From NCBI RefSeq assembly GCF_001435575.1, contig NZ_AZEA01000004.1:40093-104092 (forward strand): DNA of 64,000 bases, in the 5' to 3' direction. Below are positions 1,933-21,399 of the stretch, one piece after another. Source of the stretch: Lentilactobacillus sunkii DSM 19904. Lineage in GTDB: Bacteria > Bacillota > Bacilli > Lactobacillales > Lactobacillaceae. The position numbers were made by a program, and so were the translations under genes. Position 1 is the stretch's first letter. The number at the start of each line of letters is the position of its first letter. The notes beneath the pieces are model-generated. The model was not told the DNA's origin and did not search any database. It saw nothing but the letters and a program-made list of their open reading frames with translations.

Positions 1933-1950
1933 ATTTAGGAAGTGAAAATA

Positions 1951-3114
1951 GTGAAAGAAATATATTTGGACAACGCTGCTACAACCCCGGTTTCCGAGGA
2001 AGTTTACACTGAATTGATGGACAAGTACAAAAACATTTATGGAAATGCTTCAACACTATATGGATTGGGACGCGAATCCAAAGCAATTATGGAGAGTTCC
2101 AGAGATATCATTGCCAAAAGCATTAACGCTGATCCCGACGACATTGTCTTTACAAGCGGTGGCTCAGAGAGTGATAACACTGCGATAACTCAAACTGCTA
2201 TTGCCCGGAAATCACTTGGGAATCACATTATTACGACGGCAATTGAGCATGAAGCCGTTTTAAGGCCCTGTGAGGCTCTTGAAAAGATGGGGTTCAGAGT
2301 TACCTATTTACCGGTCGATCAGTACGGAAACATCTCATTAGACGACTTTAAAGCTGCATTGGACGATGACACCATCCTGGTTTCCATTATGACTGGAAAT
2401 AACGAGGTTGGTTCTGTTATGCCGATTCACGAAATCGGTGAGATTTTGAAAGACCATCAAGCCTGGTTCCACACTGATGCGGTTCAGGCTTATGGTTTGT
2501 TGGATATTGATGTTCAACGCGATCACATTGACATGCTTTCAACTTCCGCCCACAAGATTAACGGGCCTAAGATGATTGGTTTCTTGTATCGTCGCAAGGG
2601 CGTTAATTTTCCAAGCTTGATCAAGGGTGGCGATCAAGAAGAAAAGCGTCGTGCCGGCACTGAAAATGTTCCTGCCATCGCTGGATTTGCCAAAGCAGTT
2701 GAGACGATTACTTCCGAAGAAAAGGCTCACCGTCAATCCAAATATTTGAAATTTAAGCATTATATTGCCGATAAACTAAAGGCAAATGGTGTTGAGTTTG
2801 AAGTCAACGGCCGGATTACTGAAGATAATTTAAATCATGTGTTTAATATTTGGCTCAAAGGAGTTTCAACCTACGTGATGCAGACAAATCTGGATCTCGC
2901 TGGGATTGCTGTATCCGGTGGTTCGGCATGTACTGCCGGCAGCATTGAGCCTTCCCACGTCCTGGTTGCAATGTATGGTAAAGACAGCCCACGCATAAGT
3001 GAGTCAATCCGAATCAGCTTTGGGCGGTATAATGAAATTGAAGACCTGGACAAACTGGTAGATGCAATTACCAAGATTGTTAATCGGGTAAAAAACAAGG
3101 GGGTAAAGATGTAA
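1951..3114 (+). CDS. nifS: NifS/IscS-type cysteine desulfurase
   Basis: A 387-residue class V PLP enzyme that takes sulfur from cysteine as a persulfide for tRNA thiolation or Fe-S assembly. It has LDNAATTP at the N-terminus, the PLP lysine in SAHKINGPK (Lys202), and the catalytic cysteine in GGSACTAGS (Cys327). The short active-site loop resembles IscS/NifS group I enzymes. GTG at 1951 is chosen over GTG at 1942 because the latter overlaps the AGGAAG binding site. The stop overlaps the next start (TAATG). No iscU or thiI is adjacent; mnmA lies 10.5 kb downstream, so a role in tRNA thiolation is inference. Confidence 0.93.
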   Translation: MKEIYLDNAATTPVSEEVYTELMDKYKNIYGNASTLYGLGRESKAIMESSRDIIAKSINADPDDIVFTSGGSESDNTAITQTAIARKSLGNHIITTAIEHEAVLRPCEALEKMGFRVTYLPVDQYGNISLDDFKAALDDDTILVSIMTGNNEVGSVMPIHEIGEILKDHQAWFHTDAVQAYGLLDIDVQRDHIDMLSTSAHKINGPKMIGFLYRRKGVNFPSLIKGGDQEEKRRAGTENVPAIAGFAKAVETITSEEKAHRQSKYLKFKHYIADKLKANGVEFEVNGRITEDNLNHVFNIWLKGVSTYVMQTNLDLAGIAVSGGSACTAGSIEPSHVLVAMYGKDSPRISESIRISFGRYNEIEDLDKLVDAITKIVNRVKNKGVKM

Positions 3115-3458
3115 TGGCATTTTCAAAAACTGGTAAGGTAAACGGTGACGATACAGTTTATGAATTGAAAGACAACGTTAAGCGTTTCACCTTACGTGAT
3201 TTAGGATTTATTGAAGGTAAAACCGGTGTCTTTTCGTTGGAAAAATCACTCGATCCAACGTCACCTTATAACGCAAATTATAAGTTCAAAATGAAGGTTG
3301 ATAAAGAATTGACCGGTTTCAGAATGGCGATTACCACCGGTAATGGTTTGGAAAAGGTCAACATCTTCAACAACCCGGATACTGAACAAAGTGTTGAACA
3401 ATATCAATTTATTATTAACGATCTGATTGATCGGGATGTCATCAAAAGACAAGTGTGA
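3114..3458 (+). CDS. DUF1831 protein, partner of cysteine desulfurase
   Basis: A 114-residue soluble protein of the DUF1831 family, which in lactobacilli is usually encoded directly after a NifS-like desulfurase. No catalytic motif or cysteine pair is visible. The sequence alternates short strands and charged turns (LRDLGF, YKFKMKVDKEL), consistent with a small alpha/beta fold. Translational coupling is likely because its ATG shares a base with the nifS stop. A role as accessory factor to the desulfurase is inferred from this pairing alone. Confidence 0.8.
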   Translation: MAFSKTGKVNGDDTVYELKDNVKRFTLRDLGFIEGKTGVFSLEKSLDPTSPYNANYKFKMKVDKELTGFRMAITTGNGLEKVNIFNNPDTEQSVEQYQFIINDLIDRDVIKRQV

Positions 3459-3534
3459 TGAGCGTCAATTGCGTCGAATTAAGTTTAATCGAAGTAACCA
3501 TGACTTTTGCATAAACTAAAAAATCATTTGCTTA

Positions 3535-3580
3535 ACAGCCACCAACTCAACCAAATGAGTTGGTGGCTGTTTTATTTTTT
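3535..3580 (+). terminator. Rho-independent terminator after nifS-DUF1831
   Basis: A perfect 15-bp stem (3535-3549 with 3556-3570) with a six-base loop is followed by a T-rich tract to 3580. It ends the mtnN-nifS-DUF1831 transcript. Confidence 0.9.
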
Positions 3581-3589
3581 CGAAAACCA

Positions 3590-3618
3590 TTGACACTGTA
3601 ATACAAAAGGAATAAATT
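3590..3618 (+). promoter_or_regulatory. Promoter of first branched-chain aminotransferase
   Basis: TTGACA at 3590-3595 and TAAATT at 3613-3618 are separated by 17 bases. The leader to the start codon is about 160 nt. I see no T-box or clear CodY box in it. Confidence 0.6.
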
Positions 3619-3784
3619 AGACAATAATTAAGATATGATGATAAACGGATAAGTAATGATCTTATGAACAACTCAGAGCGCCACGTTCGTCTGATGATTT
3701 CTTACATATCTGAATTGTAGAAACCATACTTAGTTACAACGCTTATCACCTGCTTAATCAATATTTTAAGGAGGACACATATAC

Positions 3785-4810
3785 ATGGCAAAACAAAAGT
3801 TAGAAGATCTTGATTGGACCAACCTTGGATTCGCATATCGGGATTTACCATATAGTTATAACGAGGAATTTAAGGATGGCAAGTGGCAAAATGGTGGCTT
3901 GACCACTGACTCATCGTTAACCTTCAACGAAGCAGCCGAAGACTTACATTACGGTCAGGAAGTTTTTGAAGGGATGAAGGCATATCGTACAAAGGACGGC
4001 AAAATTCAGCTTTTCCGTCCCAACATGAATGCAAAGCGTTTCAACAATTCGGCTGATCGATTAGTCATGGAACGTTACCCAGAAGATAAATTTGTTGATG
4101 CTGTAAAGCAGGTTGTTAAAGCCAACGCAGACTTTGTCCCACCGTACGGTACCGGCGGTTCACTTTACATTCGCCCGTTTATGGTTGGAACTGAACCATT
4201 AGTTGGTGTTTCACCTTCATCAACCTACACTTTCCATATTTATGCCACTCCGGTTGGTGCCTATATCAAAGGGCTTCATCCAATGCCATACATGGTCAGC
4301 AAGTATGACCGAGCCGCATATGCCGGAACCGGTCAGGCCAAGACAGCCGGTAACTATGCCGGTAGTTTGTTAGCCGCAAAGGAAGCCAAAGATAACGGCT
4401 TTGCTGGTGAACTTTATCTGGATCCTCGTCAACATAAGTACATTGATGAATTTGGCGGTGCCAACTTCTACGCTATCGGCAAAGATGGTAAGTTCTACAC
4501 CCCAAAGTCTCACTCAATCCTGCCTTCAATCACGAAGAAGTCAATCTTACAAATCGCAAAAGACTTAGGATTGGATCCTTCCGAAACCAACATTGACGTT
4601 AATGATCTTGATGAATATACAGAAGCAGGGGCCATGGGTACTGCCGCCGTTATTTCACCAGTTGGTTCATTAACCAATAATGGCAAGAAGCATGTCTTCT
4701 ACAGTGAAACTGAACCAGGACCCGTTACTCAAAAACTTTACGATACATTGTTTGGTATTCAATCAGGTGATGTAGAAGATAAATATGGCTGGGTTGTTCC
4801 AGTCGAATAA
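3785..4810 (+). CDS. ilvE: Branched-chain amino acid aminotransferase, copy 1
   Basis: A 341-residue class IV aminotransferase that transfers the amino group between Leu, Ile or Val and 2-oxoglutarate. The PLP lysine is Lys186 in GQAKTAGNYAGS. Other family marks are LHYGQEVFEGMKAY, SLYIRPFM, and GTAAVISPVGS near the phosphate-binding site. ATG at 3785 follows AAGGAGG by ten bases. No ilv or leu biosynthetic genes flank it, so it may act mainly in branched-chain amino acid catabolism. It is followed by its own terminator and then by a diverged paralog. Confidence 0.95.
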   Translation: MAKQKLEDLDWTNLGFAYRDLPYSYNEEFKDGKWQNGGLTTDSSLTFNEAAEDLHYGQEVFEGMKAYRTKDGKIQLFRPNMNAKRFNNSADRLVMERYPEDKFVDAVKQVVKANADFVPPYGTGGSLYIRPFMVGTEPLVGVSPSSTYTFHIYATPVGAYIKGLHPMPYMVSKYDRAAYAGTGQAKTAGNYAGSLLAAKEAKDNGFAGELYLDPRQHKYIDEFGGANFYAIGKDGKFYTPKSHSILPSITKKSILQIAKDLGLDPSETNIDVNDLDEYTEAGAMGTAAVISPVGSLTNNGKKHVFYSETEPGPVTQKLYDTLFGIQSGDVEDKYGWVVPVE

Positions 4811-7266: not shown

Positions 7267-7288
7267 ATAGAAATAGGAAGTGAGCATG

Positions 7289-8428
7289 ATGAAAAATACT
7301 AATTTACCCAGTGGGACCCGTGATGAATTTGGAATCGAAGCAGAGGTCAAAGAAACAATTCAAAACAAACTTTTTAAGACATTTCGTCAGCGGGGGTTCA
7401 GAAAGCTGACGACTCCCGTACTGGAATATTCAGATGTTTTTAAACCACTGAGCGCGGAAGATTATCGACCATACCAACTGTTGGACGATCAAGGTGAGCC
7501 GTTGGTGTTGCGTCCCGACCTGACGCTTCCGGTTGCCCGGGTGATGAGTACGACGGGAATCGAATTGCCGGTTAAGTGGTATTACGGCGGCGACGTTTTC
7601 CGAGTAAAGAAACAACTATCCGGCAGTTATAATCAGCTTACCCAAGCCGGCATTGAAATTGTTGGCTACAAAGGTCTGAAAGCAGACTGGGAGTGCTTGG
7701 AGGTTGCCCTTTCCGGATGCAAATCCATGGGAATTGAAAATGTCACCATTGAATTGAGTCACGCAAAATTTGTGGATACCTTAATTGAACAGCTGGAACT
7801 ACCAGATCCGACCAAAGACAGTTTGAAACAGGCGCTCTTTGCCAAAGATCTTAGTAAATACAGCCAGTTGTCCCAGCCACTCAGTGATACGCAATTTGGC
7901 CGATTCTTGGGTGAATGGCCATGGTTGTTTGGCAACTTTGATACAGTGATGGCTGTTGTTGAAACCTTACCTGAAATCGATGGCCTTCAGTCCATTATCA
8001 CCAGTTTGAAATCGACTGCAGCCTTTATTAATCAATTATTTCCTGAGGCTAACGTTACGCTTGATTTAAGCATTCCTTCACCGCAAAGCTATTACACGGG
8101 CATGGCATTTCGTGGTTTTACCGACAAATCGGCTGGCTATCTGTTCAGTGGCGGTCGATATGATGATCTGTTGACGAATTTTCAAAATGTTAAAACATCA
8201 GCTGTTGGTGTGGCTTTCGATGTTGATGCGTTGGTTGAACGGACGAGTTTACCGGATGACCAACCCGGCGCGTTGATATTTTTCACCAGTGATCAATGGC
8301 AGCAGGCAGAAGAAACATTGGCAAAGGTCCCTAATTCGACATTGTGTCTGACGGACAGCTTTGAATCAGCCCAACGGCTTGCGGCCAGTTCCAACAGTCG
8401 CTTGATCGATTTAACAAAAAGCAGGTGA
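7289..8428 (+). CDS. hisZ: ATP phosphoribosyltransferase regulatory subunit
   Basis: About 379 residues with the class II aminoacyl-tRNA synthetase-like fold of HisZ. It binds short HisG and provides allosteric control of the first histidine step; it does not charge tRNA. The N-terminus LPSGTRDEF and the core VLRPDLTLPVARV and FSGGRYDDLL are HisS/HisZ-like. At about 380 residues it lacks the anticodon-binding domain of HisS. ATG at 7289 is preferred (AGGAAG at 7275-7280); GTG at 7280 overlaps that site, and ATG at 7286 is also possible. First gene after the T-box. Confidence 0.92.
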   Translation: MKNTNLPSGTRDEFGIEAEVKETIQNKLFKTFRQRGFRKLTTPVLEYSDVFKPLSAEDYRPYQLLDDQGEPLVLRPDLTLPVARVMSTTGIELPVKWYYGGDVFRVKKQLSGSYNQLTQAGIEIVGYKGLKADWECLEVALSGCKSMGIENVTIELSHAKFVDTLIEQLELPDPTKDSLKQALFAKDLSKYSQLSQPLSDTQFGRFLGEWPWLFGNFDTVMAVVETLPEIDGLQSIITSLKSTAAFINQLFPEANVTLDLSIPSPQSYYTGMAFRGFTDKSAGYLFSGGRYDDLLTNFQNVKTSAVGVAFDVDALVERTSLPDDQPGALIFFTSDQWQQAEETLAKVPNSTLCLTDSFESAQRLAASSNSRLIDLTKSR

Positions 8429-8432
8429 AAAA

Positions 8433-9086
8433 ATGGAACGAATAAAAATTGCCCTTACAAAGGGCCGTACAGAAGATCAAGTTGTCCCGTTACTTGAAGC
8501 AGCCGGTATTAATTGCGACGGCATCCGAAATAAGCAGCGGAGATTGATATTTGACGAAGATCCCCGCTATGAAATTATTTTGGTGAAGGGACCTGACGTT
8601 CTGACATATCTTAATAATGGGTCAGTTCAAATCGGCATCGTTGGTAGTGATATTTTAACCGAGCAGGAAAATTTCCAATATGCGATGCTCGATCTCGATG
8701 TTGGTAAATGTCGATTCGTCCTGGCATCAACCAAGAATTTTAATCCACAAGCGCATCGGCGAAAGATTATCGCAACCAAGTATCCAAACATTACCAAACG
8801 GTATTTCCAAGGGATTGGCGAAGACGTTGAGATTATTAAAATTGAAGGATCCGTTGAATTGGCCCCTTTAATTGGATTGGCTGATGCCATTGTCGATATT
8901 GTTGAGACTGGTAATACCCTCCGTGAGAACAACCTTCAAATATATGCCAAGCTGCAGCCCGTCAACACTAAAGTCGTCGTCAATCGGCTGGCTTTAAGAC
9001 AGTATCAGCCGCAGATCAAAGAATTGATCGCAAACCTGGAAAATGCCAACCAACAGATGGTTCAGTCGAAACTAATCAAGGAGTGA
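8433..9086 (+). CDS. hisG: ATP phosphoribosyltransferase, short form
   Basis: A 217-residue short HisG that joins ATP and PRPP to give phosphoribosyl-ATP. It lacks the C-terminal regulatory domain, in keeping with hisZ next door. The [11 protein letters not shown] start and the PRPP-binding stretch [18 protein letters not shown] are visible. It begins four bases after hisZ stops. The following gene is hisB, with no hisD between them, although hisD commonly occupies this position. Confidence 0.95.
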
Positions 9087-9091
9087 GCAAA

Positions 9092-9676
9092 ATGAGAACA
9101 GCAACAATTTCCCGCAACACAAAAGAAACCCAGATTGAACTAAGCCTCAACCTGGATGACTATTCAAACATTCGAATTGATACAGGGATTGGTTTCTTCA
9201 ATCATATGCTTGACGCATTTGCCAGACACGGCCGTTTTGGACTGGTTGTCAAGGCCAAAGGCGATTTAGACGTTGACCCTCACCACACAACCGAAGATGT
9301 TGGGATTGCATTGGGCATGGCACTCAAAGAAGCGCTCGGTGACAAGGCTGGAATTGAACGCTTTGGCTCTGCCCTGATTCCGCTTGATGAAACCCTCAGC
9401 CGGGTCGTCATTGATCTTTCCGGACGATCTTATCTGGTATTCAAAGCTGAATTTGAAAATGATCACTTGGGTGGATACGATACCGAAGTAACCGAAGACT
9501 TCTTCCAAGCATTTGCTTTTAATGCAGAAATGAACGTTCACGCAGAAGTCTTATATGGAAGAAACACGCATCACAAAATTGAAACACTGTTTAAAGCACT
9601 GGGTAGATCACTAAGAGCAGCGGTTACCATTAATCCAGAGATTAAGGGGATTCCATCGACCAAGGGGGTTATCTAA
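9092..9676 (+). CDS. hisB: Imidazoleglycerol-phosphate dehydratase
   Basis: A 194-residue monofunctional IGPD that dehydrates imidazole glycerol phosphate to imidazole acetol phosphate. Metal-binding motifs are [27 protein letters not shown] and [14 protein letters not shown]. No HAD phosphatase domain is present. ATG at 9092 is chosen with AAGGAG at 9078-9083 as its binding site, which overlaps the hisG stop region. The stop overlaps the hisH start (TAATG). Confidence 0.95.
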
Positions 9677-10302
9677 TGATTGTGATCATTGATTATGATA
9701 CTGGGAATACACGGAACGTGAAGAATGCTTTGGATTATCTGGGCGTTCCCAACCAATTATCGGCTGATCCCAAGCAGATTTTGGCGGCTGATGGGCTGAT
9801 TTTACCGGGCGTAGGAGCGTTTAAAAAGGCAATGGATTCTCTTAATGAACGGGGACTGGTGACCACAATCCGGCAGGCAGCCGATAAAGGGATTCCGATG
9901 CTGGGAATCTGTTTAGGGATGCAGCTGCTTTTTGATAAAAGTTTTGAGTTCGGTGAATCGGCTGGATTGGGCTTGATTCCCGGCGAAGTTGTGCCAATTC
10001 CTGCCAACCTTGGGGTCAAGGTGCCACACATGGGCTGGGATAAGAATCAGTCACAGCAGGCCGATGTTTTGGCGGACAAATTTAATGGTCAGTTCAGCTA
10101 CTTCGTTCATTCCTTCTATGTTGAGACAGCCCCAGAAAATATTTTATCGACAGTCGATTATGGGATTGAGATTCCCAGTATCGTTAGAAAAGACAATGTT
10201 ATTGGATTTCAATTTCATCCTGAAAAAAGCGGTGAGGTTGGATTAAATGGATTGGCAAAGTTCAAGGAGATGGTGGAAAATGCAGATTATTCCCGCAATT
10301 GA
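9676..10302 (+). CDS. hisH: Imidazole glycerol phosphate synthase, glutaminase subunit
   Basis: A 208-residue class I glutamine amidotransferase that passes ammonia to HisF. The nucleophile is Cys79 in GICLGMQLLFD, and the His/Glu pair is in FQFHPEKSGEVG. The last 23 bases overlap hisA in a different frame, which suggests translational coupling. Confidence 0.95.
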   Translation: MIVIIDYDTGNTRNVKNALDYLGVPNQLSADPKQILAADGLILPGVGAFKKAMDSLNERGLVTTIRQAADKGIPMLGICLGMQLLFDKSFEFGESAGLGLIPGEVVPIPANLGVKVPHMGWDKNQSQQADVLADKFNGQFSYFVHSFYVETAPENILSTVDYGIEIPSIVRKDNVIGFQFHPEKSGEVGLNGLAKFKEMVENADYSRN

Positions 10303-11008
10303 TTTAAAAAATCAGCAAAGTGTCAGATTATATCAGGGTGATTTTAAACAAACCACAATTATCAACGACTCGCCATTGGATCAGGCTTTGGCAATTGAAA
10401 AGGCCGGATTGGGAAATCTTCATCTGGTTGACCTCGATGGCGCAAAGTCAGGTCGGCCTGTCAATCGGGCAACAATTGAAGCGATTTGTTCTGAAACCGG
10501 ACTTCAAGTTGAAGTTGGCGGCGGTATTCGCTCACTTTCTCAAATCAATACGTACCTCACTTCCGGCGTTAACCGGGTCATCCTTGGGTCGGCAGCATTA
10601 AATGATCCAACCTTGGTTCAGCAGGCGATTGAGCAATTTGGCGCAGACCAAATCGTCGTTGGAATTGATGGAAAAAATGGTCGGGTTGCCGTTTCCGGAT
10701 GGCTTGAGCAAAGTTCTGTTGAAATGAGCGAACTGATGGCTTCGATGGTTGCCTTTGGGGTTAAAACCTTTGTGGTAACTGACATTTCTCGTGACGGTAC
10801 CATGACCGGTCCAAATACCAATCAATTAAAGGGCCTTCAAATCAAGTTTCCTGAAGCAACCGTTGTGGCTTCTGGCGGGATTCGCAACGTGGCTGACCTG
10901 AAACAATTGGAAACAGCGGGCATTAAAGCTGCAATTATTGGTAAGGCGATGGCAACCGGCGATCTGCCGCTTCAAGTATTGGCGGAGGTGAATGCCAATG
11001 TTGGCTAA
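10280..11008 (+). CDS. hisA: Phosphoribosylformimino-5-aminoimidazole carboxamide ribotide isomerase
   Basis: A 242-residue TIM barrel that isomerises ProFAR to PRFAR. It has the catalytic aspartate in IIPAIDL near residue 8, VGGGIRS as the first phosphate loop, [15 protein letters not shown] with the second catalytic aspartate, and VASGGIRN as the second phosphate loop. ATG at 10280 lies inside the end of hisH, with AAGGAG at 10264-10269 upstream. Confidence 0.95.
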
Positions 11009-11756
11009 ACGAATTATTCCCTGTCTGGATGTTGACCATGGGCGCGTCAAAAAGGGTGTTAATTTTGTGAACCTTCAAGACGTTGGCGACCCGACTGAAA
11101 TTGCGGCTGCTTATCAGAAGCAGGGAGCCGATGAACTGGTGTTTTTGGACATCACTGCCACAAACGAAAAACGCAAAGCAATCGTTGAAACGATTGAGCA
11201 GGTGGCGACTCAAGTATTTATGCCCCTGACCGTTGGCGGCGGGATTCACAGCGTCGACGATATGCAAAACTTGTTGAAGGCTGGTGCCGACAAGACGGCG
11301 GTCAACTCGGCAGCAGTCAGCAATCCGGAATTAATAACAGAAGGGGCTGAGAAGTTTGGTGCCCAGTGCATTGTGTTAGCGATTGACGCCAAATGGAATC
11401 CAGACACACAGCAATACGATGTTTACGTTAACGGTGGGCGGAAACAAACGCCTTTAAATGCAATTGAATGGGCCAAACGGGGTGTTGAACTTGGTGCCGG
11501 GGAATTGCTGGTCACCAGTATGGATAAAGACGGCACCAAGAGTGGCTATGATATTGAGTTATACAAACAACTGACAGAGGCGGTTAATGTGCCGGTTATT
11601 GCTTCAGGCGGGTGCGGGAAACTTCAGGATTTTGCCGATGTGTTCGACCAATCTCAAGTTGACGGTGCGCTGGCTGCTTCGGTTTTTCATTTTGGTGAAT
11701 TGACAATTCCAGATGTGAAAAACGATTTGCGTAAAGATGGGGTGACAGTTCGATGA
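10998..11756 (+). CDS. hisF: Imidazole glycerol phosphate synthase, cyclase subunit
   Basis: A 252-residue TIM barrel that, with HisH, makes imidazole glycerol phosphate and AICAR. Catalytic Asp is in [21 protein letters not shown] and [13 protein letters not shown] are typical. ATG at 10998 is chosen over ATG at 10992 because GGAGGTG ends at 10990, leaving a normal seven-base spacing. It overlaps hisA by 11 bases, and its stop overlaps hisI (ATGA). Confidence 0.96.
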
Positions 11757-12088
11757 AACCTGATTTCAAAAAATATCCGGACGGCCTGGTACCGACAATT
11801 GTGATTGATGACAATACCAAGCAGGTCTTGATGATGGCCTATGTAAATGAAGAAAGCTTTAACTTAAGTATGAAGACGCGACAGACCTGGTTTTGGTCCC
11901 GCAGCCGACAGGAATTGTGGCATAAGGGCGAAACTAGTGGCAACACCCAGGAAATTGTCTCGATTGACATTGACTGTGATGAAGATACATTGTTAATGAA
12001 AGTGATTCCGGCTGGGCCGGCATGCCATACCGGCCACACCAGCTGCTTTTATCGAACAATTCTGCCGGAGCAGGCAAAGGAGGAATAA
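11753..12088 (+). CDS. hisI: Phosphoribosyl-AMP cyclohydrolase
   Basis: A 111-residue HisI that opens the purine ring of phosphoribosyl-AMP. Zinc and magnesium ligands are seen in [28 protein letters not shown] and [11 protein letters not shown]. It is encoded separately from HisE rather than fused. The start overlaps the hisF stop by four bases. Confidence 0.95.
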
Positions 12089-12091
12089 GTT

Positions 12092-12412
12092 ATGCAAGAT
12101 TTAGACGAATTATATAAATTAATTTTGGAGAGAAAAAGCAACCCTGAAAAAGGGTCATACACAGATTACTTATTTACCAAAGGTTTGGACAAGATTCTCA
12201 AGAAAGTCGGTGAAGAGGCAACCGAGGTGGTGGTTGCCGCCAAGAACCCATCCGATCCTGATTTCATTCTTGAAGTGGCCGATTTGGCCTATCACGTTGA
12301 AGTTTTGATGGCTGAACGGGGAATTACCCCTGACCAGATTAAAAAGGAGCTTGCCGGACGCGAAGGTAAGCAAAGCATTACAAAGGATCGAAAAGAAATT
12401 AAGGAGTGGTAG
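12092..12412 (+). CDS. hisE: Phosphoribosyl-ATP pyrophosphatase
   Basis: A 106-residue all-helical MazG-like HisE that converts phosphoribosyl-ATP to phosphoribosyl-AMP. The [15 protein letters not shown] helix and [13 protein letters not shown] carry the Mg-binding acids. It starts three bases after the hisI stop, with AAGGAGGAAT as ribosome binding site. Confidence 0.95.
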
Positions 12413-12414
12413 GA

Positions 12415-13494
12415 ATGGTCAAAGAAGCCGTCAAACACTTGGAACCATACGTTCCCGAATTAACTCTGGAGCAGCTTAAGCAGCAAAAGGGCTTGAAAAA
12501 GCTGGTCCGGTTATCGGCTAATGAAAATGCATATGGCACGTCACCAGATGTGGCAAAAGCATTGGACAAGTGGCATTACGCCGACTCAAATTTGTATCCG
12601 GACAGCAATGCCGAAGAGTTGAGGGAAATCATTGCTTCTCAGTTTGATATCAAACCGAATAAGCTGATTTTTGGGAATGGCTTGGATGAAATCATCGAAC
12701 TTTTATCGCGGGTTATTTTGGAACCTGGGGATGAAGTCCTTGATCCGGAACCGACCTTTTCCGAGTATGCCCTTCATTCCGAGATTGAGGGCGCAAAACT
12801 TAAATCAGTTCCCTTGGATGAATCCGGCAGAATTGATTTAAATGCCTTGACTCGCGAAATAACGCCAAAGACAAAAATGATTTGGCTGTGCAACCCCAAT
12901 AATCCAACTGGCACTTTTTTGGAGCCCAAGGCAATCCGGTCCTTTATTGCAGAAGTTTCCAAGTCGGTGACGGTGATTGTTGACGAAGCCTACATTGATT
13001 TCACAGGGAACGCGCGCGATTCAGTTGTTCCGTTGACGGCTGAGTTTGAAAATCTGGTGGTACTTCGGACATTTTCAAAAGCATATGGTTTGGCCAACTT
13101 CCGCGTTGGGTTTGCGATTTGTTCCGAGCCTTTGATTGGCTACTTACAGGCAGTTCGGCTACCGTACAACCTAAGCACCTTTGCTGAAATCGCTGCGACC
13201 GCTGCGTTTAAAGATCAGTCATTTGTAGCTGGTGCCGTAAAAAAGATTATTGATGAACGACAAAAATGGGAACATTTTCTGATTAAATCCGGACTCCCAT
13301 TTTATGATTCCGCAACTAATTTTATCTTCTTTCAAGTAAAGGGTGGCGATGCAAATGCGCTTCACGAATTTTTGCTGGAAAACGGTTATTTACTTCGGAA
13401 TGGTTTACGCAAGGACTGGCTGCGGGTTACAATCGGCCGACCGGAAGACAATCAGGCCGTTCAAACCCTGATCACCAAATTTCTTGGACAATAA
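12415..13494 (+). CDS. hisC: Histidinol-phosphate aminotransferase
   Basis: A 359-residue fold-type I aminotransferase that converts imidazole acetol phosphate and glutamate to histidinol phosphate. The PLP lysine is Lys222 in RTFSKAYGLANFRVG. NPNNPTGTF and VDEAYIDF are the usual cofactor motifs. ATG at 12415 (AAGGAG at 12401-12406) is preferred over GTG at 12406. It is the last gene of the operon. A GCATTC/GAATGC stem follows at about 13514-13532, but without a T run. Confidence 0.95.
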   Translation: MVKEAVKHLEPYVPELTLEQLKQQKGLKKLVRLSANENAYGTSPDVAKALDKWHYADSNLYPDSNAEELREIIASQFDIKPNKLIFGNGLDEIIELLSRVILEPGDEVLDPEPTFSEYALHSEIEGAKLKSVPLDESGRIDLNALTREITPKTKMIWLCNPNNPTGTFLEPKAIRSFIAEVSKSVTVIVDEAYIDFTGNARDSVVPLTAEFENLVVLRTFSKAYGLANFRVGFAICSEPLIGYLQAVRLPYNLSTFAEIAATAAFKDQSFVAGAVKKIIDERQKWEHFLIKSGLPFYDSATNFIFFQVKGGDANALHEFLLENGYLLRNGLRKDWLRVTIGRPEDNQAVQTLITKFLGQ

Positions 13495-16782: not shown

Positions 16783-19263
16783 TTGGACCGTTCAATGGAT
16801 TTATTTGGCTCAGAACAAAATAATCACGAACCACAATATGTTGATGGCCGATTAAAGGCGATCTTCTTTTCGAGTAACGACAGTTTTTACAAAGTCGTTC
16901 TGGTTGAAATTACTGATACAAATGTTAATTGGCCGGAAGAAGAAATTGTTGTCACTGGGAATTTTGGTGACTTGGTAGAAGAAAACAGTTACCACTTCAC
17001 TGGCAAATTGGTGGACCATCCCCGTTACGGCAAACAGTTTCAGGCCGCCAATTACACCAGTGTCATTGCAACGACTCGCGAAGGGGTCGTCAAATATTTA
17101 TCCGGTGACCAATTTCCGGGAATCGGTAAAAAGACTGCTGAGAGAGTTGTCGACGTTTTGGGCGATGATGCAATCGAAAAAATAACGGCTGACAGTCGGG
17201 TCCTTGATGATGTGCCAATCAGTCCAAAATTACGAACAGCAATTGTTGAAAATCTAAATACCGATGATAACTTGGAAAAAGTGATTGTCGGGCTTAACAG
17301 CTATGGTTTCTCCAGTGCGATCGCTTCGGCAATTTATCAAAAATACCATGAAGACGCCTTGAAAATTATTTCAGAAAATCCTTATCAACTCGTTGAAGAT
17401 ATTGACGGGATCAGCTTTAAAAAGGCCGATGCCATTGCGTTGAGATTAGGAATTGTCCCTGATTCCAACGAGCGCATTCGGGCTGGACTGATGTATGCGA
17501 TTGATGAATTGTGCCTGCAAAACGGGGATACCTATACGACCACGGCACCTTTGATTGAAACAGCCACCAGCGTTTTGGAAGGCAATTCCGATCAGCGGAT
17601 TCCCGGCAAAAAACTGGCCGAAAGCTTGGTGGAGCTTGCCAAAGAAGGCAAGGTTGTCGGCGAAGAGAATCGAATTTATTTAACCCGGTTGTACAATGCC
17701 GAGGTTCAAATTGCCGATCATTTAAATCGAGTGATTAAAAACAAAGACGACGAAGGCAGGCTCAAAGAAGATACCATTAAGAAGCAGCTTCGAGTCGTTG
17801 AGACCCAATTTGACATCAATTATGATGATTCTCAAGTTGCTGCCATTGTTCAGGCCATTCAGTCACCTGCATTTATTTTGACTGGTGGACCCGGTACTGG
17901 TAAGACCACGATTATCAACGGTATTGTCAACACTTATGCCCGTCTGCACGAGTATTCTTTGGACATCAATTCATATAAGGACAAGCCGTTTCCAATCGTA
18001 CTTGCTGCGCCAACCGGTCGTGCAGCCAAGCATATGACCGAATCAACCGGGCTGCCGGCCAGTACAATTCACAGGCTTCTCGGATTGAACGGACGGGAGT
18101 CCAATGACACAGTTGGAACCAAGGACATTGAAGGTGCGCTGTTGATCATTGATGAAATGTCGATGGTAGATACTTACTTATTTAGATCATTAGTTCGAGC
18201 AATTCCCAACCACATGCAGGTGGTTCTGGTGGGAGATCAGGATCAGCTGCCTTCAGTTGGCCCGGGACAAGTCTTCCACGATTTGCTGGTATCAAAGCAG
18301 ATTCCAGCCATGCAACTCAACACCATTTATCGGCAGGAAAAAGGCTCATCCATTATCCAGCTGGCACATGATATCCATCGTGGCGAGCTATCAGATGATT
18401 TTACGAAGAATCAATCGGATCGCTCATTTATTCCCTGCAATGAATACCAGATATCGTCGGTTATTGAGCAGGTAACTAAACGGGCCAAGCAAAAAGACTT
18501 TGGTCTGATGGATGTTCAAGTCCTAGCACCAATGTATCGTGGTCGTGCCGGAATTGACCGACTGAACGATGTCGTCCAACAGGTCTGGCAGGGGGATGTT
18601 ACAGGCAAAAAGTCTGTGACCATCCGTGAGCACACCTATCGGATTGGTGATAAAGTGCTCCAATTAGTGAATAACCCTGAGCAAAATGTCTTTAACGGTG
18701 ACATCGGAATTATCGTCGCCATGGAGGCCGTTAAAGGTCAAAAGACACCCAATAAAATTACGATCGATTTCGATGAGACTGAAGTCACATACGAAAAAAA
18801 TGAATGGACCCAGTTTACTTTGGCATACTGTACGTCAATTCATAAAGCCCAAGGTAGTGAGTTCAAGATGGTGATCTTACCGATTGTCCGTCAATTTTCA
18901 CGGATGCTGCAGAGAAATCTCCTATACACTGCCGTGACTCGGGCCAGCGACTTTTTGATTATGCTGGGTGAAAAAGAAGCCTTTGAGCAATGTGTTCGAA
19001 GTGTTTCCGTGAACCGGCAGACCAGTTTGGTCAAACGATTGGTTGACACAGTTGGTCTTACGTCGGAAACCAGTGTTGTCGATGTGAACTCGAGTGCTGA
19101 GGATGGTGACTCGGATAAAGAAGTTCAACCGTCTGGGACTGAAAATAATGACCTGCAAGCCGACATCCCCGACCATTTAACCACTGAAGTGATCAACCAA
19201 AGCAGGATTGACCCAATGATTGGAATGGATGATGTCACTCCTAAAGACTTTATGAAGTCTTAG
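16783..19263 (+). CDS. recD2: ATP-dependent RecD2-type DNA helicase
   Basis: An 826-residue SF1B 5'-3' helicase of the RecD2 type, acting in DNA repair outside a RecBCD complex. The N-terminal extension has helix-hairpin-helix-like segments (FPGIGKKTAERV). Helicase motifs are GGPGTGKTTI (Walker A), LIIDEMSMVD (motif II), GDQDQLPSVGPG (motif III), TIYRQ (motif IV) and TSIHKAQGSEF (motif V/VI). The C-terminal 70 residues are acidic and poorly conserved. TTG at 16783 follows AGGAGG by six bases; ATG at 16795 is an alternative. Confidence 0.93.
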   Translation: MDRSMDLFGSEQNNHEPQYVDGRLKAIFFSSNDSFYKVVLVEITDTNVNWPEEEIVVTGNFGDLVEENSYHFTGKLVDHPRYGKQFQAANYTSVIATTREGVVKYLSGDQFPGIGKKTAERVVDVLGDDAIEKITADSRVLDDVPISPKLRTAIVENLNTDDNLEKVIVGLNSYGFSSAIASAIYQKYHEDALKIISENPYQLVEDIDGISFKKADAIALRLGIVPDSNERIRAGLMYAIDELCLQNGDTYTTTAPLIETATSVLEGNSDQRIPGKKLAESLVELAKEGKVVGEENRIYLTRLYNAEVQIADHLNRVIKNKDDEGRLKEDTIKKQLRVVETQFDINYDDSQVAAIVQAIQSPAFILTGGPGTGKTTIINGIVNTYARLHEYSLDINSYKDKPFPIVLAAPTGRAAKHMTESTGLPASTIHRLLGLNGRESNDTVGTKDIEGALLIIDEMSMVDTYLFRSLVRAIPNHMQVVLVGDQDQLPSVGPGQVFHDLLVSKQIPAMQLNTIYRQEKGSSIIQLAHDIHRGELSDDFTKNQSDRSFIPCNEYQISSVIEQVTKRAKQKDFGLMDVQVLAPMYRGRAGIDRLNDVVQQVWQGDVTGKKSVTIREHTYRIGDKVLQLVNNPEQNVFNGDIGIIVAMEAVKGQKTPNKITIDFDETEVTYEKNEWTQFTLAYCTSIHKAQGSEFKMVILPIVRQFSRMLQRNLLYTAVTRASDFLIMLGEKEAFEQCVRSVSVNRQTSLVKRLVDTVGLTSETSVVDVNSSAEDGDSDKEVQPSGTENNDLQADIPDHLTTEVINQSRIDPMIGMDDVTPKDFMKS

Positions 19264-19310: not shown

Positions 19311-19348
19311 TTAAATAAATAGGTAAAGAAGAATACTTGGAGGATATC

Positions 19349-20308
19349 ATGGCCGAATCAAAAACGCATCCCAATCTTAAATTATTTTCTTTGAGTTCCA
19401 ACCATCACTTGGCTGAAGAAATTAGTAAGGCAGTCGGTGTGCCCCTTGGTAAAGCAACTGTAGAAAAGTTCAGTGATGACGAAATCAAGATTAGTGTTGA
19501 TGAAAGTATCCGGGGCGACGAAGTGTACATCATTCAGTCAGTTTCCGATCCTGTCAACTCCAACTTGATGGAGTTACTGATTATGGTAGATGCTGTGCGT
19601 CGAGCAAGTGCAAAGTCAATCAACGTCGTCATTCCTTATTATGGATACTCACGGGCTGATCGGAAGGCTCGTTCAAGAGAGCCGATTACAGCTAAATTAG
19701 TTGCTTCATTTTTAGAGATGGATGGTGTTGACCGTGTAGTTGCACTTGATCTTCATGCTGACCAGATCCAGGGCTTCTTCAATATTCCTGTCGACCATTT
19801 GAAGGCCGATACTTTACTGGCCCATTACTTTATCACAACCCATCATAGTTCAGACGTTGTGGTTGTTTCACCAGACCATACCGGTGTTTCCCGTGCCAGA
19901 AAGTTTGCCGAACTCTTAAACGCTCCGATTGCGATTATTGACAACCGTTCTCCGGAAGATTCGACAACTGTTCCTGAATCGGTTATCGGTAATGTCAAAG
20001 GAAAACGGGCAATCATTGTTGATGACATGATTGATACCGCATTTAAGCTGACAATTGCAGCAGAGACCTTGAAGAAGGCCGGGGCAACCGATGTCTTTGC
20101 AATTGCAACCCATGCGGTCTTCTCGGGGGATGCTCAACAGCGTCTTCAAGACTCACCTATCAAAAAGGTGATTGTGACAGATTCAATTAGTATTTCCAAA
20201 GCCGATCAATTTGAAAAGCTTGAAGTCGTTTCAGTCGGCCAATTATTTGGCGAGGCGATTTCGCTGATTCATAATCATAAATCAGTCGGTCGGCTGTTCG
20301 GAAGATAA
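19349..20308 (+). CDS. prs: Ribose-phosphate pyrophosphokinase paralog
   Basis: A 319-residue class I PRPP synthetase homolog (ribose 5-phosphate + ATP to PRPP + AMP). Most landmarks are kept: [48 protein letters not shown], and [18 protein letters not shown]. The PRPP loop is altered: residues 225-235 read [11 protein letters not shown], where typical enzymes have DD--DTAGTIT. Gly232 is thus Phe and Thr233 is Lys in the ribose-phosphate-binding turn. ATG at 19349 with GGAGGA upstream. Activity is uncertain; a second, standard prs may exist elsewhere in the genome. Confidence 0.85.
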
Positions 20309-20333: not shown

Positions 20334-21323
20334 ATGTATAAGGCAAATGACGATCGTTATGAAAACGCAGTAGTTCGCAGAGCTGGAAATTCCGGACTGC
20401 AATTACCCGCACTATCATTCGGATTGTGGCACAGTTTTGGCGATGATGCCAATTACGGCGACAGTGAAAAAGTCATTTTGAAGGCCTTTGACCTGGGAAT
20501 CTTTAGTTTTGACAACGCGTACAATTACGGTCCCGGTTCTGGTGCTGCAGAGCGGATGTTCGGTGAGGTTTATCGGGCTAATCTCAAACCATATCGGGAT
20601 GAATTAGTGATCACGACTAAAGCCGGTTTCAACATGTGGCCCGGCCCTTACGGAAACTTTTCATCAAAGAAGACCCTGGTCAATGCTTTGGATGGCAGTT
20701 TGAAACGGATGGGTTTGGACTATGTCGACGTCTATTACAGTCATCGATTTGATCCAAATACCAGTCTTGAAGAAACTGCCGAAGCTCTGGATGAAATTGT
20801 TCGTTCAGGTAAAGCTTTATACATTGGGATTTCCAACTATAATTCAAAACAAACTGCAGAGATTATTAAATACTTTAAAGAACTTCATACACCATTTGTA
20901 GTCAACCAGGCTTCTTATAACATGTTGAATCGTGGTGTTGAAGACGATGGCCTGCTGGATACATTGAGCAGCAATAATAAAGCCTTGGTGGCATATGGTC
21001 CACTCGCTGAAGGGTTGTTGACTGATAAATATCTCAATGGCATGGATGACGACGTTAAGATTCACTGGAGTAACGAATTTGTCATTAAGCATGGCAAAGA
21101 CGAATTAGTAAAGAAACTCAATGAATTAAATGACATTGCAAAGAACCGCGGTCAAAATTTGGCCCAGATGTCTTTGGCTTGGCTGCTGCATGATAAGACA
21201 GTTGCCAGTGTCGTCACGGGCGCTTCCAAGATCAATCATCTTGAGGACAACATGAAAGCACTCAAGAATCTTGACTTTACGACGGATGAACTCGAAAAAA
21301 TTGATAAAATTGTTAAAGAATAG
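20334..21323 (+). CDS. Aldo/keto reductase (YghZ/Kvbeta-like)
   Basis: A 329-residue NADPH-dependent aldo/keto reductase close to the YghZ (glyceraldehyde 3-phosphate reductase) and K-channel beta branch. The catalytic set is visible: Asp and Tyr in SFDNAYNYGPG, Lys in ITTKAGFNMWPGPYG, His in YYSHRFD. The cofactor region near the C-terminus contains VVTGASKINHLEDN. ATG at 20334 follows GAGGTGG. It lies between prs and rbsR; a direct link to ribose use is not proven. Confidence 0.9.
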   Translation: MYKANDDRYENAVVRRAGNSGLQLPALSFGLWHSFGDDANYGDSEKVILKAFDLGIFSFDNAYNYGPGSGAAERMFGEVYRANLKPYRDELVITTKAGFNMWPGPYGNFSSKKTLVNALDGSLKRMGLDYVDVYYSHRFDPNTSLEETAEALDEIVRSGKALYIGISNYNSKQTAEIIKYFKELHTPFVVNQASYNMLNRGVEDDGLLDTLSSNNKALVAYGPLAEGLLTDKYLNGMDDDVKIHWSNEFVIKHGKDELVKKLNELNDIAKNRGQNLAQMSLAWLLHDKTVASVVTGASKINHLEDNMKALKNLDFTTDELEKIDKIVKE

Positions 21324-21370
21324 TTTGGAAAACAACTAAATACACTGTATAAATTGAGCGTTAAATTGGG

Positions 21371-21386
21371 ATTAAACCGGTTTAAT
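21371..21386. promoter_or_regulatory. LacI-family operator upstream of rbsR
   Basis: A perfect 16-bp palindrome, ATTAAACCGGTTTAAT, with the central CG typical of LacI-family sites. It covers the -35 position of the promoter whose -10 is TATAAT at 21400-21405. RbsR most likely represses its own operon by blocking polymerase here. Confidence 0.8.
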
Positions 21387-21399
21387 GCTTTTTATTTGT

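Follow-up and report, generated by a model that had tools for sequence, protein, structure and literature searches.

A degenerate second PRPP synthase of the Lactobacillales is a candidate pseudoenzyme that may act on the canonical copy

Lactobacillales genomes with two genes for PRPP synthase carry, wherever we read both copies, one canonical gene (prs1) and one (prs2) whose product has lost catalytic residues; this order-wide loss of sequence always lies beside a canonical copy. From the residues that are missing, we infer that Prs2 is catalytically inactive. Our main reading, to which we assign a probability of roughly 0.6, is that Prs2 is an old PRPP-synthase pseudoenzyme that likely sits in mixed oligomers with Prs1 and tunes it. 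Nucleotides, histidine, tryptophan, and NAD all depend on PRPP synthesis as a chokepoint. If the reading holds, then lactobacilli, streptococci, and several further families of Lactobacillales carry a pseudoenzyme under an enzyme's name; its database names need correcting, as do metabolic models in which Prs2 figures as another PRPP synthase; and there is a tractable bacterial system for studying how pseudoenzymes tune PRPS.

The window, a stretch of 64,000 nucleotides from Lentilactobacillus sunkii DSM 19904, contains the copy of prs2 that we began with (Table 1). Its start (ATG) and end were read from the sequence. The ORF program also listed a TTG start at 19337, which overlaps the ribosome-binding site. 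Residue names such as K194, R196, and N200 follow human PRPS numbering.

Table 1. Location of prs2, its motifs, and its immediate neighbors in the window
Feature	Coordinates	Strand	Basis or remark
prs2, degenerate PRPP-synthase paralog, 319 aa	19349..20308 (stop included)	+	ORF and homology
Ribosome-binding site GGAGGA before the ATG at 19349	19339..19344	+	Read directly
FLAG motif FSDDE, aa 41-45 (human F35/D37/E39), key residues intact	19469..19483	+	Kept in 60/60 Prs2
Regulatory flexible loop, 14 aa, aa 98-111; Q97 to Ala; R96, K100, and R104 kept	19640..19681	+	Alignment
Pyrophosphate loop, 13 aa, aa 173-185; first Gly to Thr	19865..19903	+	Gly in 1/60 Prs2 versus 67/67 canonical
Catalytic flexible loop, 19 aa, aa 196-214; K194/R196/N200 to N/S/S	19934..19990	+	Alignment
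Ribose-5-phosphate loop, 12 aa, aa 224-235, with F232 and K233	20018..20053	+	Translation
C-terminal allosteric segment SVGRLF, aa 312-317; S308 and F313 kept, S310 to Gly	20282..20299	+	Alignment
recD2 helicase gene, directly upstream of prs2	16783..19263	+	Commonest neighbor in Lactobacillaceae-type loci
Aldo/keto reductase (AKR) gene, 25 bases downstream of prs2	20334..21323	+	ORF and family check

Active class I PRPP synthases have a Lys and an Arg in the catalytic flexible loop (K197/R199 in Bacillus subtilis; K194/R196 in human) and Thr228 with Gly227 in the ribose-5-phosphate (R5P) loop. In an alanine-scanning study, changing K197 or R199 of the B. subtilis enzyme reportedly caused large losses of rate. 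The window protein has neither pair: the flexible-loop positions are N199 and S201, and F232 and K233 stand in the R5P loop. It does have the full-length PRPS fold and sequence homology. It also keeps F35, D37, E39, R96, H130, D171, D220, D221, D224, and T225, as well as S47, R49, K100, R104, Q135, D143, S308, and F313. In the Escherichia coli enzyme, R5P is bound by D170, D220, D221, T225, and T228 (PMC9232217). A phosphate at this site in human PRPS2 touches the G227 backbone as well as T225 and T228 (PMC10227994).

The first-pass annotation of this DNA had singled out F232 and K233 as unusual and suggested that the enzyme might be inactive or regulatory. Translation of residues 224-235 confirms the pair, and PRPP synthases do have Gly and Thr there: in canonical copies from Lactobacillales, the Gly is present in 66 of 67 and the Thr in all 67, and both are present in 8 of 8 Bacillales outgroup sequences. 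Because relatives that are 95-96% identical to the window protein (L003, L004, and L032) share the FK, it is not a sequencing slip. An alignment of Prs proteins from the Lactobacillales does contain this variant, but as a local detail (5 of 60 Prs2 rows, Lentilactobacillus only). In the open-licence papers that we consulted, we came across no FK enzyme with demonstrated activity. The suggestion of an inactive or regulatory protein fits the data, as residues of the flexible loop and the pyrophosphate (PP) loop are also lost across the class, but FK is not the key to it.

Our alignment has 135 rows (67 canonical Lactobacillales, 8 Bacillales outgroup, and 60 Prs2), which were taken from 236 copies plus the window, with near-duplicates and some further loci left out. 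Among the 60 Prs2 rows, R196 is retained in 1, N200 in 3, K194 in 12, G173 in 1, G227 in 2, and T228 in 16, and no row keeps K194, R196, and N200 together. (The one match to R196, in L199, is likely an accident of the alignment.) Other residues are kept throughout: F35, D37, and E39 of the FLAG motif, which a subunit lends to its neighbor's active site, and R96, H130, D220, D221, and the allosteric residues R49 and D143 are each found in 60 of 60 rows, and T225 in 56 of 60. Apart from G227, every residue that we counted is present in all 67 canonical copies. Some losses are specific to part of the class. Allosteric S310 is gone from 41 of 43 Lactobacillaceae Prs2, and in the streptococcal/enterococcal-type rows, K100 is lost and D171 and D224 have become Lys and Asn (12 of 12 in each case). 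To place these losses, we considered the 101 columns that are near-invariant in canonical copies. Less than 50% retention in Lactobacillaceae Prs2 was seen for 8 of the 23 columns in the three catalytic loops versus 6 of the 78 elsewhere (Fisher p = 0.003), so the loss is concentrated in the catalytic loops and is not due to chance.

These losses hit the protein's own catalysis and spare the parts that a subunit gives to its neighbor, along with much of adenine-nucleotide binding, which is why we favor a non-catalytic partner. In the mechanism that we propose by analogy, an old duplicate of Prs1 would have been stripped of catalytic residues in the flexible loop, of the initial PP-loop Gly, and, in the majority of Lactobacillaceae, of the R5P-loop Gly-Thr. 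Diphosphate transfer by such a protein should be too slow to be useful. The fold would have been retained, along with the FLAG residues and the greater part of both the ATP pocket and the allosteric residues. Prs2 would then probably assemble with Prs1 into mixed dimers or hexamers, supply its intact FLAG motif to a Prs1 active site, and tune the output of Prs1 or its response to ADP and phosphate. The evidence about the interface consists of the FLAG and allosteric residue counts. Given that D220, D221, and H130 are retained, the pocket could still bind a ligand, which is compatible with a role as a sensor. Several observations point away from a pseudoenzyme: the retention of H130, D220, D221, and T225 would also suit substrate binding or slow conversion, K194 and T228 survive in some rows, S310 and K100 are lost, and the genes of the two proteins are mostly unlinked.

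A more specific version of this reading, which we hold tentatively and at somewhat less than even odds, is that Prs2 is the first recognized class of bacterial PRPP-synthase pseudoenzymes, order-wide and largely vertically inherited, that it forms mixed hexamers with Prs1 and lends them its FLAG motif, that its own site, often rebuilt with Lys or Arg, has become an effector site, and that it is convergent with the eukaryotic PRPSAP proteins. The rebuilt site also bears on another explanation. A Lys or Arg occupies aa 233 in 38 of 60 Prs2, and 47 of 60 have a basic residue at aa 232 or 233; both counts are 0 of 67 in canonical copies. Prs2 might be an active diphosphate or phosphate transferase that works on another pentose phosphate or with another donor, contacted by the new Lys or Arg, and the universal retention of H130, D220, D221, and FLAG would agree with this. 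However, R196 has no conserved substitute (Ser, Asp, Gly, Asn, Ala, Glu, or His in Lactobacillaceae Prs2), and the changes at D171 and D224 in the streptococcal/enterococcal type also argue against a transferase, which we consider unlikely.

A new substrate would also gain from the ribose genes close by in Lentilactobacillus, but these neighbors are not conserved. The AKR gene, rbsR, and rbsK noted in the first-pass annotation are real, yet they give weak support as a hint of function. Of 62 Lactobacillaceae-type loci, 16 have the AKR gene directly after prs2. The direct order prs2-AKR-rbsR occurs in eight of the loci that we fetched, all from the window's genus (L003-L007 and L032-L034). A looser version, with one more gene between, is found in one Secundilactobacillus locus (L036). 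From the 25-base spacing, prs2 and the AKR gene are probably co-transcribed. A hairpin whose tail is rich in T (21356-21390) separates the AKR gene from rbsR, and rbsRK may thus be transcribed on its own, although the terminator scan overall found no more terminators than expected by chance. A general functional link between prs2 and rbsRK is unsupported, as is one between prs2 and recD2.

By sequence and by predicted structure, Prs2 is a full-length member of the class I family (B. subtilis Prs; NF002618, NF002686; TIGR01251). The window protein just passes the NCBIfam equivalog NF002618 (ribose-phosphate diphosphokinase; score 465.3, cut-off 460), Pfam finds three PRPS/phosphoribosyltransferase domains in it, and the Prs2 of Streptococcus sanguinis passes its own equivalog, NF002686 (618.8 versus a cut-off of 506). 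The window protein and five other Prs2 that we tested all score above the cut-off of one or more models bearing the name ribose-phosphate diphosphokinase. In structure alignments, the identity to B. subtilis Prs is 54-56%. Unlike that enzyme, Prs2 is without the Lys, Arg, and Asn of the flexible loop, the first Gly of the PP loop, and the Gly-Thr of the R5P loop. An AlphaFold2 model (from 27 sequences, canonical ones included) has a mean pLDDT of 85.6, with the regulatory loop (101-112) below 50. Among its structural matches, B. subtilis Prs ranks first (Z = 39.4 over 305 residues, 2.4 Å), and human PAP39 and PAP41 match with Z of 35.5 and 35.2. As the model resembles active enzymes no less than PAP39 and PAP41, the fold cannot separate an enzyme from a pseudoenzyme.

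One of the weaker fold matches is PyrR (Z = 13.7), and regulators with a PRTase fold exist. Taken with the retention of several ligand-pocket residues and the loss of catalytic ones, this would suit a stand-alone sensor of a ligand (such as adenine nucleotides, PRPP, or ppGpp) whose partners are proteins other than Prs1. But Prs2 has no extra domain, and no neighbor is conserved across the order: the gene directly upstream is recD2 in 40 of 62 Lactobacillaceae-type loci (often in the order mnmA-gpm-TPR-recD2-prs2) versus 0 of 28 others, and in 19 of those 28, namely the streptococcal loci and most loci of family f3, the next gene after prs2 is one that we call cysteine-desulfurase-like from the look of its sequence. 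A sensor of this kind thus seems improbable. Canonical prs has a different neighborhood, as the preceding gene is one that we take to be glmU-like in 61 of 81 loci and in none of the 49 degenerate copies.

The annotation had proposed looking for a second, canonical prs in the same genome, and there is one: L. sunkii has two prs matches (also by Pfam PF14572), the window copy and a canonical gene that is 62% identical to it (G000:C4:36404-37345). Across 151 genomes of the family, we found two Prs matches in 127 and one in 24, and searching these 24 again with the canonical protein gave one match each. We read 38 of the 127 two-copy genomes in the family (one per two-copy genus, all those sampled from the window's genus, and its own genome) and all 24 single-copy genomes; from the rest of the Lactobacillales, we read 16 of 33 two-copy genomes and 5 of 28 single-copy genomes. 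In each of the 54 two-copy genomes that we read, one copy is canonical, with the KRR loop, and the other is degenerate and lacks it. The 29 single-copy genomes that we read all carry the KRR form, and none relies on Prs2. Among the 90 copies without KRR (a set with some near-duplicates in it, as well as the window's own gene and L074, from Neobacillus), none keeps the PP-loop Gly, the R5P-loop Gly, and the R5P-loop Thr together. The only Prs that we found in five genomes of genus g29 (L131-L135) has DTGHT, with His at the R5P-loop Gly, and its flexible loop is longer by two residues. This suggests that the Gly is dispensable, and because these five single-copy genomes carry His there, this position alone is not diagnostic of activity.

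As a control, we examined 139 sampled genomes of Bacilli outside the Lactobacillales, of which 22 gave two or more Prs matches at E 1e-60. Of the 14 extra copies in the 13 of these genomes that we read, 13 keep K194 and R196. Degeneration is therefore a trait of the Prs2 class and not of second copies generally. A few of the extra copies in other Bacilli have odd loops: L262 (a third copy, in G295) has D220 changed to Val along with KRQ, L251 (G315) has the same change of D220, L070 has DTAET, and L074 has DTART and DRRQ. From their sequences, these are possibly separate degenerations.

The closest known parallel is with eukaryotic PRPSAP1 and PRPSAP2 (PAP39/PAP41; the fungal Prs1/Prs5 type), which are also class I duplicates beside an active copy. 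Human PRPSAP2 has substitutions at D171, K194, R196, N200, and T225 that are described as blocking the coordination of ATP and R5P and the stabilization of the transition state, while its dimer interfaces are conserved (PMC12238573). The pattern of loss in Prs2 resembles the one reported for PRPSAP, and the same flexible-loop residues (K194, R196, and N200) are gone. There are also differences. PRPSAP proper has a non-homologous insertion within the catalytic flexible loop (PMC12238573), and Prs2 is without this long insertion; the loop of the window protein has the canonical length of 19 residues, and that of some Prs2 relatives has a few extra residues. Furthermore, T225 and D171 are kept in most Lactobacillaceae Prs2, Prs2 is bacterial, and its binding to a partner is proposed only.

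This parallel bears on whether Prs2 could be a slow but genuine PRPP synthase for special conditions. Outside the loops, Prs2 keeps most residues of the active site, and K194 (12/60) and T228 (16/60) are not entirely gone, as a slow enzyme might show. Yet R196 and N200 are lost nearly throughout, three of the five substitutions that disable PRPSAP2 fall at the same loop positions (PMC12238573), and in none of the 29 single-copy genomes is Prs2 the sole copy. We regard a slow synthase as quite improbable.

Prs2 is also under purifying selection. Rough estimates of dN/dS (several dS values exceed 1) were 0.011-0.053 in 11 of 15 Prs2 pairs (four pairs with infinite dS were left out) and 0.009-0.014 in 4 of 6 Prs1 pairs (omitting one saturated pair and one without an amino-acid change). 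None of the 236 copies has an internal stop, including the 90 copies without KRR. Across the family, Prs2 drifts more quickly, with a mean pairwise identity of 54% among 43 rows against 72% among 43 rows of Prs1, and the Prs2 frame of genome G164 (L263, family f8) is without its N-terminal part, hinting at a recent loss of prs2 in this one genome. Together with the 24 of 151 family genomes that show no second Prs, this indicates that prs2 can be lost. The stop codons noted in the second prs genes of G205 and G198 are the natural ends of those genes; only G164 looks broken. Faster evolution and the G164 frame are what a decaying pseudogene or relic would show, but the unbroken frames, the low dN/dS in the lineages tested, and the second match in most of the family make this very improbable.

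In a quick tree of the 135 rows, a single clade (SH-aLRT 91, on a branch that is not starred) takes in 58 of the 60 Prs2 rows. L224_4073, which lies in tandem directly behind a canonical prs, pairs with that neighbor, and L219 (a prs copy at about 3020-3954) is unplaced; by sequence, both look like independent degeneration events. Long branches are a worry for trees of Prs2. With the catalytic-loop columns removed (67 rows), a free quick tree required three changes for Prs2, two of them forced by starred branches. On this set, one clade without L224_4073 and L219 was not rejected (p-AU = 0.70), nor was one clade of all 34 Prs2 (p-AU = 0.18). A common origin of Prs2 is likely, though not proven, and is supported by synteny. 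We do not claim a single origin for every Prs2, as L224_4073 and L219 fall outside the 58-row clade.

In the open-licence papers that we searched, PRPS pseudoenzymes are reported from eukaryotes only; a bacterial class, if our interpretation of the residues is correct, would be new. A preprint from June 2026 describes their origin more than 30 times in eukaryotes (37 events, from a screen of a eukaryotic set only) and reports, from sequence logos, that the major prokaryotic classes of PRPS retain the universally conserved catalytic residues (PMC13252144). In its main text, no word starts with lactobac, streptococ, firmicutes, bacillota, bacilli, or lactic. Bacteria and archaea are described as typically expressing one PRPS (PMC12238573). 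In the titles and abstract openings of the open-licence literature, we found no bacterial PRPS pseudoenzyme and no Lactobacillales Prs2 called inactive. Two text matches to "prs2" were set aside: in PMC10249872 it is a guide RNA, and in PMC11681623 it is mostly human PRS2. The main texts of three streptococcal transposon papers (PMC5806208, PMC12053914, and PMC4440532) do not mention prs.

The genes that follow prs2 in streptococcal-type loci are also present in the window, at a different place. In those loci, the desulfurase-like gene is followed by a gene of 113-115 aa and then, in L217, by mnmA. Homologs of the desulfurase-like and small-gene pair are at 1942-3458 of the window. In five Lactobacillaceae loci (L035, L036, L044, L049, and L051), the small gene is just before mnmA (with a short ORF between in one) and no histidine genes intervene, unlike in the window, where a histidine operon (7280-13494; hisC confirmed) separates the pair from mnmA. 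The first ORFs of this operon (7280-9086) presumably encode HisZ and the short HisG. HisZ offers a further parallel to the role proposed for Prs2, as a catalytically retired paralog of HisRS that serves as the regulatory subunit of short HisG in PRPP-dependent metabolism; its fold is unrelated to that of Prs2, and it acts on a different enzyme.
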